Assembly: GCA_902546725.1 (NCBI GenBank)
Contig: CACCLB010000001.1
Location: 62,001-126,000 of the forward strand
Source: an uncultured Bacteroidota bacterium
Lineage (GTDB): Bacteria; Bacteroidota; Bacteroidia; Flavobacteriales; Flavobacteriaceae
Reading direction: 5' to 3'
Length of the DNA: 64,000 nt
Below, piece by piece: positions 10,954 through 64,000 of this stretch. Made by a program: the position numbers and the translations under genes. The stretch's first letter is position 1. Every line of letters starts with the position of its first letter. The notes beneath the pieces are model-generated. The model had not been told where the DNA came from, did no database searches, and saw nothing but the letters and a program-made list of their open reading frames with translations.

Positions 10954-12279
10954 ATGATTACTACAGGAGATAAAGAATATTATAAAGGTATTGGGGGAAT
11001 CCAATACGAAGGTAAAGATTCTGATAACCCCTTTGCTTACAAATATTACAACCCAGACCAAGTAGTTGCTGGTAAAACCATGCGTGAACATTTTAAATTT
11101 GCAATTGCTTACTGGCATAGCTTTTGTGGTCAGGGAGGGGATCCTTTCGGACCAGGAACTCAACAATTTCCGTGGGACCAAGCCGCTGATCCAATACAGA
11201 GAGCTAAAGATAAAGCAGATGCAGCATTTGAATTAATTACCAAACTGGGCTTTGATTATTTTTGCTTTCACGATGTTGATTTAATCGACGAAGCACCAAC
11301 TCTAGCTGAAAATGAAAATCGCTTACAAATTATTTCAGATTATGTAGCCCAAAAGCAACAGGCTTCAGGAGTTAAATTGCTTTGGGGGACCGCAAATTGC
11401 TTTTCCAACCCTGTCTATATGAATGGGGCAGCAACCAATCCAGATTTCAATGTAGTTGCTCGAGCAGGAGCTCAAATTAAAATGGCATTGGATGTTACCA
11501 TTAAACTGGGCGGTGAAAATTATGTCTTCTGGGGTGGAAGAGAAGGGTATATGTCCTTGTTGAATACCGATATGGGAAGAGAATTAGAACATATGGGACA
11601 AATGTTAACCATGGTTAGAGATTACGCTCGATCTAAGGGTTTCAAAGGAAGCTTTTTTATAGAACCTAAACCTGCAGAACCAATGAAGCACCAATACGAT
11701 TTTGATGCAGCTACTGCAATTGGATTTCTTAGAGAATACGGTTTGGATCAAGACTTTAAACTGAATATTGAGGTAAATCACGCTACCCTTGCTCAACATA
11801 CTTTTGAACATGAATTAGCCGTTGCAGCAAATGCAGGAATGTTAGGCAGTGTAGATGCAAATCGAGGAGATAACCAAAATGGTTGGGATACTGACCAGTT
11901 TCCGGTAAATATTTATGAGGTAACTGAAGCCATGCTAGTATTTCTTAGATCAGGAGGACTCCAAGGAGGAGGAATCAATTTTGATGCTAAAATTAGAAGA
12001 AATTCTACTGATTTAGAAGATGTATTTCACGCGCATATTGGTGGGGCAGATGTGTTTGCTCGTGCTTTAATCACGGCTGAAAAAGTAATGAATGACGGAG
12101 GTCTTGAAAAACTAAGAAATGCGCGTTATGCTTCTTTCGACAAAGGGGATGGGCAGCGCTTCGAAAAAGGAAATCTAGGTTTGGATGAATTGTCAAAAAT
12201 CGCACTAGGGGGAAAAGCCCCCGATCGAATAAGTGGAAAACAAGAATTGTATGAGAATATACTTAATCAATACATTTAA
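10954..12279 (+). CDS. xylA: Xylose isomerase
   Basis: 441 aa, class II length. Signature motifs are all present: 'YFCFHDVDL' (catalytic His), '[18 protein letters not shown]' (metal site and family signature), '[18 protein letters not shown]' (metal-binding Glu/His), 'GSVDANRGD' and a C-terminal DxD ('GWDTDQF'). It converts D-xylose to D-xylulose using two divalent metals in the cytoplasm. It directly follows xylB. Its last 47 bases are overlapped by the start of the formylglycine-generating-enzyme gene, so that gene is likely translationally coupled to it. Confidence 0.98.
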
Positions 12280-13312
12280 AAGCAAAGGCTTAGGTTTTTT
12301 TATAGGAATTTTAGTCCCCTTTTTTATAATCAAATGTAGGGATGAGGTAAAGACCAATTCACCGCCTGCTGTTAAAGACGGTATGGTTTTGATTCCGGCT
12401 GGAGAATTTCAAATGGGCAGTGAGGGTGATCAAGCAAGAGATGACGAATCCCCCAATCATCACGTTGGTGTAGATGCTTTTTGGATGGATCAAACCGAAG
12501 TTACCAATGCTGAATTTAAAGCATTTGTCGATGCAACGGGTTATATAACTACCGCAGAGAAAAAGCCCAATTGGGAAGAACTCAAAAAAGAACTACCTCC
12601 TGATACACCTAAACCAAACGATTCCTTACTTCAAGCAGCTTCTTTGGTCTTTGAGTCAACAGACGGTCCTGTGAATTTAAACGACTTTGGCGCTTGGTGG
12701 CAATGGAAGCCGAAAGCCAGTTGGCGGCACCCAAGAGGTGAGGGAAGTTCTTTAGAAGGTAAAATGAATCATCCAGTAGTGCATATTTCTTGGTATGACG
12801 CCCAAGCCTATGCAGCTTGGGTTGGGAAAAGATTGCCAACAGAAGCCGAATGGGAATGGGCTGCTAGTGGAGGAAAAAAGAAAGCCAAGTATCCTTGGGG
12901 AAATGAATCCGTTACGGAAGGAGCACCTAAAGCCAATTCTTGGGAGGGCAGTTTTCCTTACCAAAATACCTTGAGAGATCAGTTTTTTTATACTGCTCCT
13001 GTAGCCTCGTTTGAACCGAATCCTTTTGGACTATTCGACATGGCTGGGAATGTTTGGGAGTGGTGTTCTGATTGGTATGATTATACTTACTATGAGTATT
13101 TGGAGCCAAAAAAAGCAATCAATCCACAAGGTCCTGAAGTTCCTTATGACCCCTATCAACCCTACCTAAAACAAAAAGTAATGCGTGGAGGTTCATTTCT
13201 CTGCAATGATACTTATTGCTCGGGTTATAGGGTTGCATCTAGGATGAAGTCAACCCCTGATACTGGCTTACAACACACCGGTTTTAGATTGGTAAAATCA
13301 GCTGATCTTTAG
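12233..13312 (+). CDS. Formylglycine-generating enzyme (sulfatase-activating), membrane/lipoprotein form
   Basis: 359 aa with an N-terminal hydrophobic segment (residues about 19-34, ending 'FIIKC', a possible lipobox) followed by an FGE-sulfatase domain: '[20 protein letters not shown]', '[15 protein letters not shown]', '[15 protein letters not shown]', '[11 protein letters not shown]'. The true active-site pair is present as C-N-D-T-Y-C near residues 324 and 329, matching the C-x4-C of functional aerobic FGEs rather than FGE-like proteins without cysteines. It would oxidise the Cys of sulfatase motifs to formylglycine in the periplasm. Two sulfatases with such motifs occur at 56.5 and 59.4 kb. 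Start could also be ATG 12251. It overlaps xylA by 47 nt. Confidence 0.9.
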
Positions 13313-13340
13313 AAGTCTATTTTTTTCTTTTTTAAAAAAA

Positions 13341-13353
13341 TGACACCGTGTCA
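13341..13353. promoter_or_regulatory. Palindromic operator TGACACCGTGTCA upstream of etfBA
   Basis: Perfect 6-bp arms TGACAC and GTGTCA around one central base, flanked by A-rich and T-rich runs. The identical 13-mer occurs at 61790-61802 between the SCP2 and FadN-like genes. In both places 10 nt separate the palindrome from a TAnnTTTG-like box. This is the architecture of a repressor site (TetR-type regulators often bind such sites) for fatty-acid genes; the binding protein is not in the window. Confidence 0.75.
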
Positions 13354-13363
13354 CTTTTTTTAT

Positions 13364-13371
13364 TAGCTTCG
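13364..13371 (+). promoter_or_regulatory. -7 box (TAGCTTCG) of the etfBA promoter
   Basis: TAGCTTCG matches the TAnnTTTG consensus at 5 of the 6 fixed positions and lies 10 nt after the operator palindrome and 18 nt before the etfB start. The operator would cover the -33 region of this promoter. Confidence 0.45.
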
Positions 13372-13388
13372 TATAAAATACCCTATAT

Positions 13389-14135
13389 ATGAAAATCTTA
13401 GTATGTATAAGCAACGTACCAGATACTACTTCTAAAATCAATTTTACTGATGAAAATCGTGCTTTTGATACGCAAGGAGTCACTTATATCATCAACCCAA
13501 ACGACGAGTTTGGATTGACCAGAGCTATTTGGTTACAACAGCAAGAAGAAGCCACGGTAACTGTTGCCACAGTTGGAGAGGCGTCTTGTGAGCCAATTTT
13601 ACGAAAATGTCTGGCTATAGGAGCAGATAATGCTGTACGAATAGATGCGTTTCCTGAAGATGGTTTTTATGTCGCATCTCAACTTGCAGCCTATGCTGAA
13701 AAAGAAGCTTTTGATTTGGTCATTACTGGAAGAGAGTCCATTGATTACAATGGCGGAATGGTTGGTGCAATGCTGGCTAATTATTTAGAGATGCCATATT
13801 TAGCAAATTGTATTCAGCTTGAAAAAGAGGGAGAGAGCATCCTTTTGCAAAGGGAGATTGATGGAGGGAAAGAGAATCTTAAGGGAAAACTTCCTTTAGT
13901 AATAGGAGCACAGAAGGGCTTGGTTGAAGAAAAGGATTTAATTATTCCCAATATGAGAGGAATTATGCAGGCAAGACAAAAGCCACTAGAGGTAGTGACT
14001 CCGATAGAGTCTGAGGCTTCTAGTTCCATTAAGTCATACGAAAAGCCACCTGCAAAAGGACACGTAAAACTTGTTGATACAGGGGATATAGATCAGTTGA
14101 TTGATCTGTTACAAAATGAAGCTAACGCCATATAA
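13389..14135 (+). CDS. etfB: Electron transfer flavoprotein subunit beta
   Basis: 248 aa, full length. 'MKILVCISNVPDTTSKINF' is the typical EtfB start, 'VTYIINPNDEFGLTRAIWL' contains the family NP-D/E motif, and 'VITGRESIDYNGGMVGAMLA' is the AMP-binding segment. With EtfA it forms the soluble heterodimer that takes electrons from acyl-CoA dehydrogenases and passes them to ETF-quinone oxidoreductase. It precedes etfA by 12 nt. The palindromic operator upstream is shared with the beta-oxidation gene at 61840, suggesting common control by a fatty-acid-responsive regulator. Confidence 0.97.
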   Translation: MKILVCISNVPDTTSKINFTDENRAFDTQGVTYIINPNDEFGLTRAIWLQQQEEATVTVATVGEASCEPILRKCLAIGADNAVRIDAFPEDGFYVASQLAAYAEKEAFDLVITGRESIDYNGGMVGAMLANYLEMPYLANCIQLEKEGESILLQREIDGGKENLKGKLPLVIGAQKGLVEEKDLIIPNMRGIMQARQKPLEVVTPIESEASSSIKSYEKPPAKGHVKLVDTGDIDQLIDLLQNEANAI

Positions 14136-14147
14136 ATATTAGAAATA

Positions 14148-15104
14148 ATGTCTGTTTTAGTATACATAGAAACACAAAATCAAGAAATAAAAAAATCAAG
14201 CCTAGAGGTAGCATCCTATGGTCGCGCTATTGCTGATGCTAAGTCAACTTCTTTAATCGCAGTATGTTTTGGTTTAGAGGACAGTTCGCAATTGGCAGCG
14301 TATGGAGTTGATAAGGTTTTTGTTATTCCTACTGCTGGAGATATTCATTTTAATGCAGAACGCTACAGCAGCACTCTGGTAGCTATCGCCAAGGCGGAAG
14401 CTGTTGACCTGCTTATTGTAAGTGGGTCTGCAAACGGTCGTTTTATAGGTCCTCTTATCGCTATTAAATTTGAAGCTAGCTATTTTTCAAATGTCATTGG
14501 ACTCCCAACAGCTTATGATCCTGTTGAGGTCAAACGTTCTTGTTTTACTAATAAAGCGTTCAATCACAGTATCTCAAAAAAGGATAAAGTTGTTATTTCA
14601 CTTTCCTCCAATTCCTTTGGGTTACACGAAAAAGCAGCCGAGGCAGCACCAGTTGAAGGGACTTATTCTCCTTCATCTTTCTCATTAGAAGTGGTAACAG
14701 TAGAACAATCTTCAGCTAAGGTAAGTATTGCTGATGCCGATATCGTTGTTTCAGGAGGAAGAGGTTTAAAGGGTCCAGAAAACTGGCACTTAATAGAAGA
14801 ATTAGCGAATGTGTTAGGAGCAGCTACTGCCTGTTCTAAACCTGTTTCAGATATGGGTTGGCGTCCTCACAGTGAGCATGTAGGTCAAACAGGTAAGCCA
14901 GTTGCTTCGAATTTATATATCGCAATAGGTGTTTCGGGAGCCATACAACATTTAGCAGGTATAAATTCCTCCAAAGTTAAAGTTGTGATCAATAGCGATC
15001 CCGAGGCTCCATTTTTTAAAGCTGCTGACTACGGAGTAGTGGGTGATGCTTTTGAAGTAGTGCCTGAACTCACGTCTAAATTAAAAGCCTTAAAAGAAGC
15101 CTGA
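14148..15104 (+). CDS. etfA: Electron transfer flavoprotein subunit alpha
   Basis: 318 aa. The N-terminal ETF domain ends near residue 185; the C-terminal FAD domain has the full signature: 'IVVSGGRGLKGPENW', 'LGAATACSKPVSDMGW', 'HVGQTGKPVASNLYIAIGVS', 'AIQHLAGI' and 'INSDPEAPFFKAADYGVVGD'. It holds the FAD that receives electrons from acyl-CoA dehydrogenases. It forms an operon with etfB. No terminator-like hairpin is obvious before the next gene 68 nt downstream. Confidence 0.97.
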   Translation: MSVLVYIETQNQEIKKSSLEVASYGRAIADAKSTSLIAVCFGLEDSSQLAAYGVDKVFVIPTAGDIHFNAERYSSTLVAIAKAEAVDLLIVSGSANGRFIGPLIAIKFEASYFSNVIGLPTAYDPVEVKRSCFTNKAFNHSISKKDKVVISLSSNSFGLHEKAAEAAPVEGTYSPSSFSLEVVTVEQSSAKVSIADADIVVSGGRGLKGPENWHLIEELANVLGAATACSKPVSDMGWRPHSEHVGQTGKPVASNLYIAIGVSGAIQHLAGINSSKVKVVINSDPEAPFFKAADYGVVGDAFEVVPELTSKLKALKEA

Positions 15105-61460: not shown

Positions 61461-61757
61461 TTATCCCATCAAGGACTGGACTTTCATCGCCAATCCCATA
61501 TCTCCAGTAATTTTTATTTGACCTCCCATTACGGCCATCATTGGATTGATATCTCCATCTCTTAGTTTTTGAAGGACCTCAGCTGTTAGGCTGATGGTAC
61601 AATCAGCTTCCCCGTTTGAGGCAGTCACCGTATTAGTTTCTCCAGTACCGTCAATTAAAATCCCCTGACCGTCAACTTCAAATTTAATTGAACCACCAAT
61701 AGGGGCTGCAGTTGAAGCGCGTTTTTCAAATTGGGAAATCATGTTTTCTAGACTCAT
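61461..61757 (-). CDS. SCP2 sterol-binding domain protein
   Basis: 98 aa, a bare SCP2 fold: 'IKFEVDGQGILIDGTGE' followed by 'GEADCTISLTAEVLQKLRDG' and 'INPMMAVMGGQIKITGDMGL' (the 'G...p..a...Gkikv.Gd...a..l' signature). It binds hydrophobic ligands such as acyl-CoA. It is divergent from the FadN-like gene, and the palindromic operator lies between the two starts, so both are likely under the same fatty-acid control. Confidence 0.9.
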   Translation of the reverse strand: MSLENMISQFEKRASTAAPIGGSIKFEVDGQGILIDGTGETNTVTASNGEADCTISLTAEVLQKLRDGDINPMMAVMGGQIKITGDMGLAMKVQSLMG

Positions 61758-61770
61758 AATATTGTTTTTT

Positions 61771-61778
61771 TAAAAGTA
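61771..61778 (-). promoter_or_regulatory. -7 box (TACTTTTA) of the SCP2 gene
   Basis: On the minus strand, TACTTTTA (one mismatch to TAnnTTTG) starts 11 nt after the palindrome. Its position mirrors the box on the other side, supporting two-way control. Confidence 0.4.
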
Positions 61779-61789
61779 AAAATAAAAAA

Positions 61790-61802
61790 TGACACCGTGT
61801 CA
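61790..61802. promoter_or_regulatory. Palindromic operator TGACACCGTGTCA between SCP2 and FadN-like genes
   Basis: Identical to 13341-13353. Here the dyad is even longer: AAAAAATGACAC-C-GTGTCATTTTTT is perfect over 12 bp per arm. It lies 10 nt before a TAAATTTA box for the plus-strand gene and 11 nt before a TACTTTTA box for the minus-strand gene, so a bound repressor could shut both. Confidence 0.78.
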
Positions 61803-61812
61803 TTTTTTTAAT

Positions 61813-61820
61813 TAAATTTA
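61813..61820 (+). promoter_or_regulatory. -7 box (TAAATTTA) of the FadN-like gene
   Basis: One mismatch to TAnnTTTG, 10 nt after the palindrome, as at etfBA. The start codon is 20 nt downstream. Confidence 0.45.
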
Positions 61821-61839: not shown

Positions 61840-64000
61840 ATGAATTATCGATTGAAAAAAGTAGCCGTTTTAGGATCAGGAGTAATGGGCTCTGGAATAG
61901 CTTGCCATCTAGCAAATGTTGGTATGGAGGTATTGATGTTGGATATAGTCACCCCCAATCTTAGTGACAGTGACTCCAAAGACAGTACACTTAGAAATAA
62001 GTTAGTCAACACAGCTTTACAAAAAACAATTAAATCCAAACCGGCTCCATTATACCACAGTTCATTTGCTTCGCGAATTCAAACCGGTAATTTTGAAGAT
62101 CACTTTGAAAAGATCACCGAGTCTGACTGGATTATAGAGGTAGTAGTAGAAAACCTTAAAATCAAAAAGCAGATTTTTGAAAAAGTAGATCAGTACCGAA
62201 AAAAGGGGAGTTTGATCAGTACCAACACTTCAAGTATTCCCATTCACTTATTAGCAGAAGGACGTTCAGATGATTTTAAAAGCTGTTTTAGCGGAACTCA
62301 TTTCTTTAACCCTGCACGTTATTTAAGATTGCTAGAGGTCATTCCAATCGCTGAAACCAAAACAGAGGTTGTTGATTTCTTTATGGAGTTTGGAAAGGTG
62401 ACTCTCGGAAAGCAAACAGTTCTTTGTAAAGATACGCCTGCTTTTATTGGGAATCGTATAGGGGTGATGTCGGGTACGGAAATGACATTACTCACAGATA
62501 AATACGATTTCAAAATCGAAGAGGTCGATGCCATGACGGGTTCCTTAATCGGTCGTCCAAATACTGCAACCTTTCGTTTACAGGATTTAGTTGGTTTGGA
62601 TACAGGGGATAATGTGACTCGTTTTGTATCAGCAAATGTCCAAGGAGACGACTATATCGATCAACTTAAAAATCGACCTGAGCCCAAGTTTGTAAAGTTT
62701 CTTTTGGACAACAAATTCCTTGGAAATAAAACAGGGAAAGGATTTTATGAAAAGACCTCGGAGAAAGATGAAAAGGGAAAAACCATCATCAATGCACTCA
62801 ATCTTAAGACCCTGACCTATGAAGCTGCCATACGACCCAAAATGGAGCTTGTAAAAACAGCAAAGGGAATGGAGTTGATGGATAAAAGACTGCAATACCT
62901 CGTTGAAGGTGATACCAAAGGGCAGCAATTTTTTGCAGAATATTTCGGCCAATTATTTGGTTATTCAGCGGCTCGAGTTCCAGAAATATCCGATCAATAC
63001 TATCCTGTAGACGATGCCATGCGCACCGGTTATTTTTGGGATTATGGACCTTTTGAATATTGGGATCTGATGGGATTTGAATTGGGAGTAAATCTAATTG
63101 AAAAAGTGGGTGCGGTTGTTCCCACTTGGATTACAGAAATGAAAGCGAATGGGAATTCTCAGTTCTACAAATTTGAAGGAGGCAAGAAAAAATTCTATAA
63201 CATTGAAACTAAAAAATACGAAGCTGTTCCTGGAACAGAAGCCTTTGTACTTTTGGACAGTTTTAGATCCCAATCCCCACTGGTAAAAAACAGCGAATGT
63301 GTTGTTCACGATATAGGTGAGGGTGTTCTTTGTTTAGAATTTACTGGTAAAAGCAACTCTATAGGCGAAGGGGTTGGTAAAGCATTATTGGAAACCATTC
63401 AATTGGTTGAAGAAGGGAATTGGAAAGGCTTGGTTATCGGAAACAACGCCAAACAATTTTCTGTAGGAGCCAATTTGATGAATATCGGCATGTTTGCAAT
63501 GCAAAAACAGTTTGATGTTTTAGAACGCTTTGTAGATGATTTTCAGCAGATCAATATGAAAATACGCACCTCTAAATTTCCTGTAGTTGTTGCTACTCAG
63601 GGCTATGTCTTCGGAGGAGGATGTGAAATAGCCATGCACTGCGACGCTGGAATTTACGCAGCAGAATCTTATATAGGTTTGGTTGAAGTTGGAGTAGGAC
63701 TTCTTCCGGGAGGTGGAGGAACTAAAGAATTTGCTCTTCGAGCCTCAGATGATTTTTTTGAAGGAGATGTACAATCACCCACTCTGATCAATTACTTTAA
63801 ATCCATAGCTACTGCAGCCGTTTCTACTTCAGCACATGAAGCCTTTGATTTAAAATACCTCAGAAAAGAAAGAGACGAGGTTTGTGTCAATACTCCAATG
63901 AATATTGGTCTGGCGAAAGCCAAAGTATTGGATTTGGCTCAAAATTATATTGCACCTTCCGCAAGGGAGGACGTACAGGTTTTAGGAAGAGCAGGAATGA
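61840..64000 (+). CDS. fadN: 3-hydroxyacyl-CoA dehydrogenase/enoyl-CoA hydratase (FadN-like), 3' partial
   Basis: Not in the ORF track because it runs off the window; 720 codons are visible. The N-terminal dehydrogenase opens with 'VAVLGSGVMGSGIACHLANV' (NAD-binding), then 'VVVENLKIKKQIFEKVD', 'STNTSSIPI' and 'GTHFFNPARYLRLLEVIP' (the HAD signature). The enoyl-CoA hydratase/crotonase half follows from about residue 490: 'VVVATQGYVFGGGCEIAMHC' and 'VEVGVGLLPGGGGTKEFAL' with both catalytic-region Glu. The domain order (dehydrogenase first) is that of FadN/YusL, opposite to FadB. It performs two beta-oxidation steps. A thiolase is expected just beyond the window. Confidence 0.93.
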   Translation, partial: MNYRLKKVAVLGSGVMGSGIACHLANVGMEVLMLDIVTPNLSDSDSKDSTLRNKLVNTALQKTIKSKPAPLYHSSFASRIQTGNFEDHFEKITESDWIIEVVVENLKIKKQIFEKVDQYRKKGSLISTNTSSIPIHLLAEGRSDDFKSCFSGTHFFNPARYLRLLEVIPIAETKTEVVDFFMEFGKVTLGKQTVLCKDTPAFIGNRIGVMSGTEMTLLTDKYDFKIEEVDAMTGSLIGRPNTATFRLQDLVGLDTGDNVTRFVSANVQGDDYIDQLKNRPEPKFVKFLLDNKFLGNKTGKGFYEKTSEKDEKGKTIINALNLKTLTYEAAIRPKMELVKTAKGMELMDKRLQYLVEGDTKGQQFFAEYFGQLFGYSAARVPEISDQYYPVDDAMRTGYFWDYGPFEYWDLMGFELGVNLIEKVGAVVPTWITEMKANGNSQFYKFEGGKKKFYNIETKKYEAVPGTEAFVLLDSFRSQSPLVKNSECVVHDIGEGVLCLEFTGKSNSIGEGVGKALLETIQLVEEGNWKGLVIGNNAKQFSVGANLMNIGMFAMQKQFDVLERFVDDFQQINMKIRTSKFPVVVATQGYVFGGGCEIAMHCDAGIYAAESYIGLVEVGVGLLPGGGGTKEFALRASDDFFEGDVQSPTLINYFKSIATAAVSTSAHEAFDLKYLRKERDEVCVNTPMNIGLAKAKVLDLAQNYIAPSAREDVQVLGRAGM

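Follow-up and report, generated by a model that had tools for sequence, protein, structure and literature searches.

Comparative sequence evidence supports the view that, in a group of marine Flavobacteriaceae, the etfBA operon and the distant beta-oxidation genes share one operator, which stands in place of the switch that most relatives use. Two fatty-acid regulons and their operators are predicted here for this family, one attributed to a TetR-family protein (TGACAnnnTGTCA) and the other to a MarR-family protein (CTATGCATGCATAG). The Flavobacteriaceae are abundant marine bacteria, and no regulator of beta-oxidation is described for them in the literature searched. The group, comprising about 38 related species together with sister genera, would provide a readable case in which a pathway swaps its repressor, its target genes stay, and the number of targets varies from species to species.

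The Palindrome at etfB and Its Second Copy

The site at etfB is a 13-bp palindrome, TGACACCGTGTCA (13341..13353), whose TGACAC arms pair perfectly about a single odd centre base and which is bordered by an A tract and a T tract. These flanks (13334..13361) are conserved in the genus, with the consensus AAAAAAATGACACnGTGTCATTTTTTT. Downstream lie etfB (13389..14135, plus strand, 248 aa, PF01012) and etfA (14148..15104, plus strand, 318 aa, PF00766 and PF01012), encoding the beta and alpha subunits of the electron transfer flavoprotein (ETF). As the preliminary description had claimed, the same palindrome occurs again near the beta-oxidation genes: the second predicted operator, identical to the first, is located 48.4 kb away (61790..61802) between the divergent genes for an SCP2 (sterol carrier/lipid transfer) domain protein (61461..61757, minus strand, PF02036) and for the 3-hydroxyacyl-CoA dehydrogenase/enoyl-CoA hydratase FadB (61840..64000, plus strand). 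The fadB gene continues past the end of the window, that is, the whole 64-kb stretch of DNA analysed, and is followed outside it by fadA and then tetR, the latter just beyond the window (G000:C1:127418-128020, or 65418-66020 in window numbering).

Two perfect copies were observed in the assembly of this organism (1.70 Mb, 75% complete) against 0.064 expected from base composition (0.0024 per 64 kb), and a third perfect copy was not found in it. Among the 31 perfect 6-1-6 palindromes of the window, TGACACCGTGTCA is the only repeating one with at least three G+C per arm. Other matches were rejected. The sole one-mismatch copy in the assembly (C3:24572) lies within an integrase reading frame, a match in a genome of another family (G054) lies within a coding sequence, and the window sites with two to three mismatches show no excess over chance.

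The sigma-A -7 box of Flavobacterium psychrophilum, TAnnTTTG, spans -12 to -5 (PMC9723704). Each copy is followed, after exactly 10 nt, by a TAnnTTYG-like box, namely TAGCTTCG before etfB (13364..13371, plus strand, one letter off the TAnnTTTG consensus) and TAAATTTA before fadB (61813..61820, plus strand), so the earlier claim of an equal distance to the promoter box is correct. On that placement of the box, etfB transcription is predicted to begin near 13376, with the palindrome covering -35 to -23, in agreement with its proposed position over the -33 region. On the opposite strand, a -7-like box of the SCP2 gene, TACTTTTA (61771..61778, minus strand), is found about 11 nt from the second copy.

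Conservation in the MS024-2A-Type Genus

The genus, one of marine MS024-2A-type MAGs within the Flavobacteriaceae, comprises 38 genomes. Comparison of etfB upstream regions across the family, suggested previously as a check, located the site in all 36 genus promoters whose assembly contains etfB (a few with one altered arm letter), which supports an operator common to etfBA and the beta-oxidation operon; the remaining two genomes carry no etfB on their contigs and stand outside this count. Perfect copies, with the centre base left free, occur one to three at a time in 33 of the 37 genus genomes searched. Those fetched all precede etfB or lie between fadB and the divergent SCP2 gene, except three at an EtfD-like gene. 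Among 35 distinct genus etfB promoters, site positions 1-6 and 10-13 are invariant, positions 1-4 and 10-13 having been imposed by the search and 5 and 6 left free. Operator and -7 box are 10 nt apart in 31 of these promoters and 9 nt apart in the other four, and 29 of the 35 match TAnnTTYG in full.

The genes before etfB are annotated as a xylulokinase-like kinase, XylA, and an FGE-sulfatase domain protein (12233..13312, plus strand, by domain match), the last being the final gene of a xylose-type cluster that is unrelated to the site, as had been stated. Comparison of upstream genes also places it outside the regulon: the neighbour of etfB is the FGE gene in 25 genus genomes and a different co-directional gene in the other 11, and because the site is kept behind both kinds, it is best assigned to etfB rather than the xylose/FGE cluster.

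It is unlikely that the etfB copy, alone or besides serving as an operator, is an intrinsic terminator (a hairpin with a U-run) of the FGE gene. The site does lie 28 nt past the FGE stop codon, all 36 genus etfB promoters have a co-directional gene upstream, and the RNA folds into a five-pair TGACA/TGTCA stem, lengthened by A-U pairs, that is modestly stable (-7.2 kcal/mol, z -3.1) and followed by seven U. However, the identical fadB site lies between divergent genes, where there is no transcript to end, and it is the letters, not just the pairing, that are conserved behind two kinds of upstream gene, at a fixed spacing from the -7 box. In one genome (G014, L009, site at 1501), the upstream FGE gene ends on the TGA of the operator, which serves as its stop codon. 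A G+C-rich stem with three or more G-C pairs ahead of a T run was not found at the site, nor did the terminator scan make a call there.

The fadBA-Linked TetR

The TetR encoded behind fadB-fadA is a well-supported candidate for the protein that binds the palindrome because of its co-occurrence with the site, its invariant recognition helix, and its FadR-like predicted fold. The protein (201 aa) matches PF00440 above the cut-off (E 3.8e-15) and is the sole TetR_N protein found in its own 75% complete assembly of 1.70 Mb. Its gene is present in 35 of the 38 genus genomes, after fadB-fadA wherever those genes share a contig. Elsewhere among 400 sampled family genomes, fadB-fadA-tetR was encountered only in the genera g196, g233, g238, and g240, making five with the present one. 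The site is present at the fadB promoter of each of these five genera (as TGACn5GTCA in the four others), with tetR in the operon behind it; this co-occurrence is inflated by shared ancestry, since it follows a single main clade of the EtfB tree.

The sister genera differ in detail. In g240, etfB also has a TGACn5GTCA site; g196 has the site at fadB and none at etfB. In g238, an SCP2 gene, whose end was identified by sequence, immediately precedes etfBA, and the gene divergent from fadB on the other side of the site is acyl-CoA dehydrogenase-like. The EtfB of g233 (L286, L291) groups with that of MarR-type genera and has no site nearby, and fadB-fadA-tetR is found elsewhere in these genomes, a possible cassette transfer. 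The TetR proteins of g76 and g139 were rejected as fadBA regulators, being distant paralogues encoded away from fadBA, with the MarR-type site retained at etfB.

The recognition helix IARGTFYNY is invariant across the fadBA-linked TetR proteins. The predicted fold has its best TM-score match in B. subtilis FadR (3whb_A, TMq 0.74), with FasR, PfmR, and SaFadR also among the hits; these fold neighbours include acyl-CoA sensors, and the ligand-binding half of the model is of low confidence (pLDDT 50-70 in part). Orthology to B. subtilis FadR, assessed by NCBIfam NF053878, gave 43.7 bits against a cut-off of 200, and the protein is best regarded as probably working like FadR, not as a demonstrated FadR.

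That the palindrome is a fatty-acid operator for another regulator, such as MarR, the second, distant TetR of many congeners or a Crp/Fnr-like protein, is quite improbable. A MarR protein persists beside an acyl-CoA dehydrogenase, but these genomes retain a palindrome of different sequence for it. Furthermore, the TGAC-type site is absent where only MarR or unrelated TetRs occur, and every genus that possesses tetR has it in the operon behind the site.

Proposed Mechanism and Closest Precedent

Very probably, then, the palindrome is the operator of the TetR encoded by fadB-fadA-tetR, which would repress etfBA, fadBA, the SCP2 gene, and tetR until it is released by long-chain acyl-CoA. When fatty acids are absent, a TetR dimer would occupy -35 to -23 of the etfB promoter and the equivalent spot between fadB and the SCP2 gene, thereby barring RNA polymerase from the -33 region. 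Rising long-chain acyl-CoA would act as the ligand that frees TetR from the DNA, and its release would turn on etfBA (the electron acceptor), fadBA (beta-oxidation), SCP2, and, by autoregulation, tetR together. Joint induction of etfBA and fadBA would be sensible, given that ETF takes electrons from acyl-CoA dehydrogenases. The regulon of some sister species would further include a membrane iron-sulfur protein resembling EtfD. The identity, position, spacing, and conservation of the site and its co-occurrence with this tetR are seen directly in the sequences, while the binding partner, repression rather than activation, the role of acyl-CoA as ligand, and the transcription start are what we infer.

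The closest precedent is B. subtilis FadR (YsiA), a repressor of lcfA-fadR-fadB-etfB-etfA whose activity is inhibited by C14-C20 acyl-CoA (PMC4525379). This is likewise a TetR repressor encoded within a beta-oxidation operon and jointly controlling several fad operons and etfBA (PMC4525379). The features shared with it here are the TetR DNA-binding domain, the similar predicted fold, the location of the regulator gene in the beta-oxidation operon behind its own operator, and the presence of the same operator at etfBA. In B. subtilis, however, etfBA lies inside the fadR operon, whereas here it is 48 kb off with an operator of its own, and the sequence match of the present TetR is as low as the 43.7 bits given above. 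The letters of the B. subtilis FadR box are also unlike those of the operator described here.

There is little likelihood that the TetR binds the site to activate etfBA and fadBA. Some TetR proteins are activators, including FasR (so designated by NCBIfam), which is the top fold hit of the model by E-value. Nevertheless, a site at the predicted -35 to -23 overlaps the core promoter, the position of a repressor, and two divergent promoters share a single site; moreover, B. subtilis FadR is a repressor (PMC4525379). The weakest alternative, a functionless chance palindrome, has a negligible probability: perfect 6-1-6 palindromes of any sequence are common enough in the window, but 0.06 copies of this one are expected per assembly against two at functionally linked promoters, and its conservation in all 36 testable species refutes it.

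An EtfD-Like Gene as a Possible Further Target

In seven congeneric species, the site is also found about 30-45 bp before a gene for an EtfD-like membrane iron-sulfur protein (loci L094, L095, L050, and L117-L120 in genomes G002, G006, G015, G028, G016, G010, and G031). EtfD has been described as the route from ETF to menaquinone in mycobacteria (PMC13083937), and the EtfD-like protein is presumed to provide such an ETF-to-quinone route here. Its likeness to the mycobacterial protein lies in its being a membrane protein that carries iron-sulfur motifs of the heterodisulfide-reductase type. The site was looked for upstream of the EtfD-like gene of the present genome (L097) and is absent there.

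The MarR-Type Palindrome of Other Flavobacteriaceae

The TetR-type site is not a family-wide feature of etfB, as most other Flavobacteriaceae use a different palindrome, CTATGCATGCATAG. This sequence or close variants of it were found at etfB in 25 of the 29 promoters read from other genera. Of 91 genomes, 85 contain the pattern, usually 2-8 times, and among 30 copies fetched, nine precede marR-fadB and ten precede etfB. MarR is the putative regulator acting at CTATGCATGCATAG. Both marR-fadB and etfBA would apparently be controlled via one palindrome per promoter, reminiscent of the TetR regulon, with a different regulator family and operator sequence. The geometry differs as well: about 21 nt separate the end of the MarR-type site from the etfB -7 box, compared with 10 nt for the TetR site, so the centre of the former lies about 10.5 bp, or one helical turn, farther upstream.

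In the MS024-2A genus, the CTATGCATGCATAG pattern is usually single, and all ten copies read precede marR followed by an acyl-CoA dehydrogenase gene, adjoining fadD. The single MarR-type palindrome of the present genome (L305, around 2329; G000:C4, about 81.8 kb) likewise lies before marR-acyl-CoA dehydrogenase, adjoining fadD. Two genomes whose EtfB is near that of the MS024-2A genus, G235 (L125) and G203 (L126), are without either palindrome at etfB, possibly an intermediate or unregulated state. In the literature searched, nothing relevant was found on either palindrome or on a MarR or TetR regulator of beta-oxidation in Bacteroidota.

An Apparent Change of Regulator

In the simplest reading, control of fadBA and etfBA seems to have shifted from MarR to TetR, with MarR retaining its own operon, because most relatives have CTATGCATGCATAG at these genes and the MS024-2A genus keeps about one copy, at marR-acyl-CoA dehydrogenase. 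Over the first 330 residues, TetR-type and MarR-linked FadB are 53% identical, compared with 75% among the MarR-linked proteins themselves; the corresponding gap between TetR-type and MarR-type EtfB is far smaller. In the EtfB tree, most TetR-bearing genera and three others form one well-supported half, and g233 falls in the other.

A tentative history, somewhat less probable than even, is that fadB-fadA-tetR spread as a cassette, operator included, among Flavobacteriaceae lineages. The FadB identities and the place of g233 outside the main cassette clade fit such a transfer. In the MS024-2A genus, it would have displaced the MarR-controlled fadBA and recruited the resident etfBA, the MarR palindrome being swapped for one a helical turn nearer the -7 box. 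Alternatively, the TetR-type fadB-fadA-tetR may be an old duplicate instead of a transferred cassette, for which the EtfB tree, built without an outgroup, leaves room.

The kind of event is not new: Proteobacteria offer known cases of non-orthologous replacement among fatty-acid regulators, in which TetR-family PsrA or FadP displaced a different regulator at the fatty-acid degradation genes of certain lineages (PMC5343134). The other regulator there was a GntR-type FadR or PsrA, whereas here, in a different phylum, it was apparently MarR. The MarR/TetR pair with its two operators was not found in the literature searched. If regulator replacement by a spreading cassette did occur, possible surviving intermediates are g233 and g196, which have the cassette and no etfB site, g238, in which SCP2 directly precedes etfBA, and the species with the added etfD-like gene.
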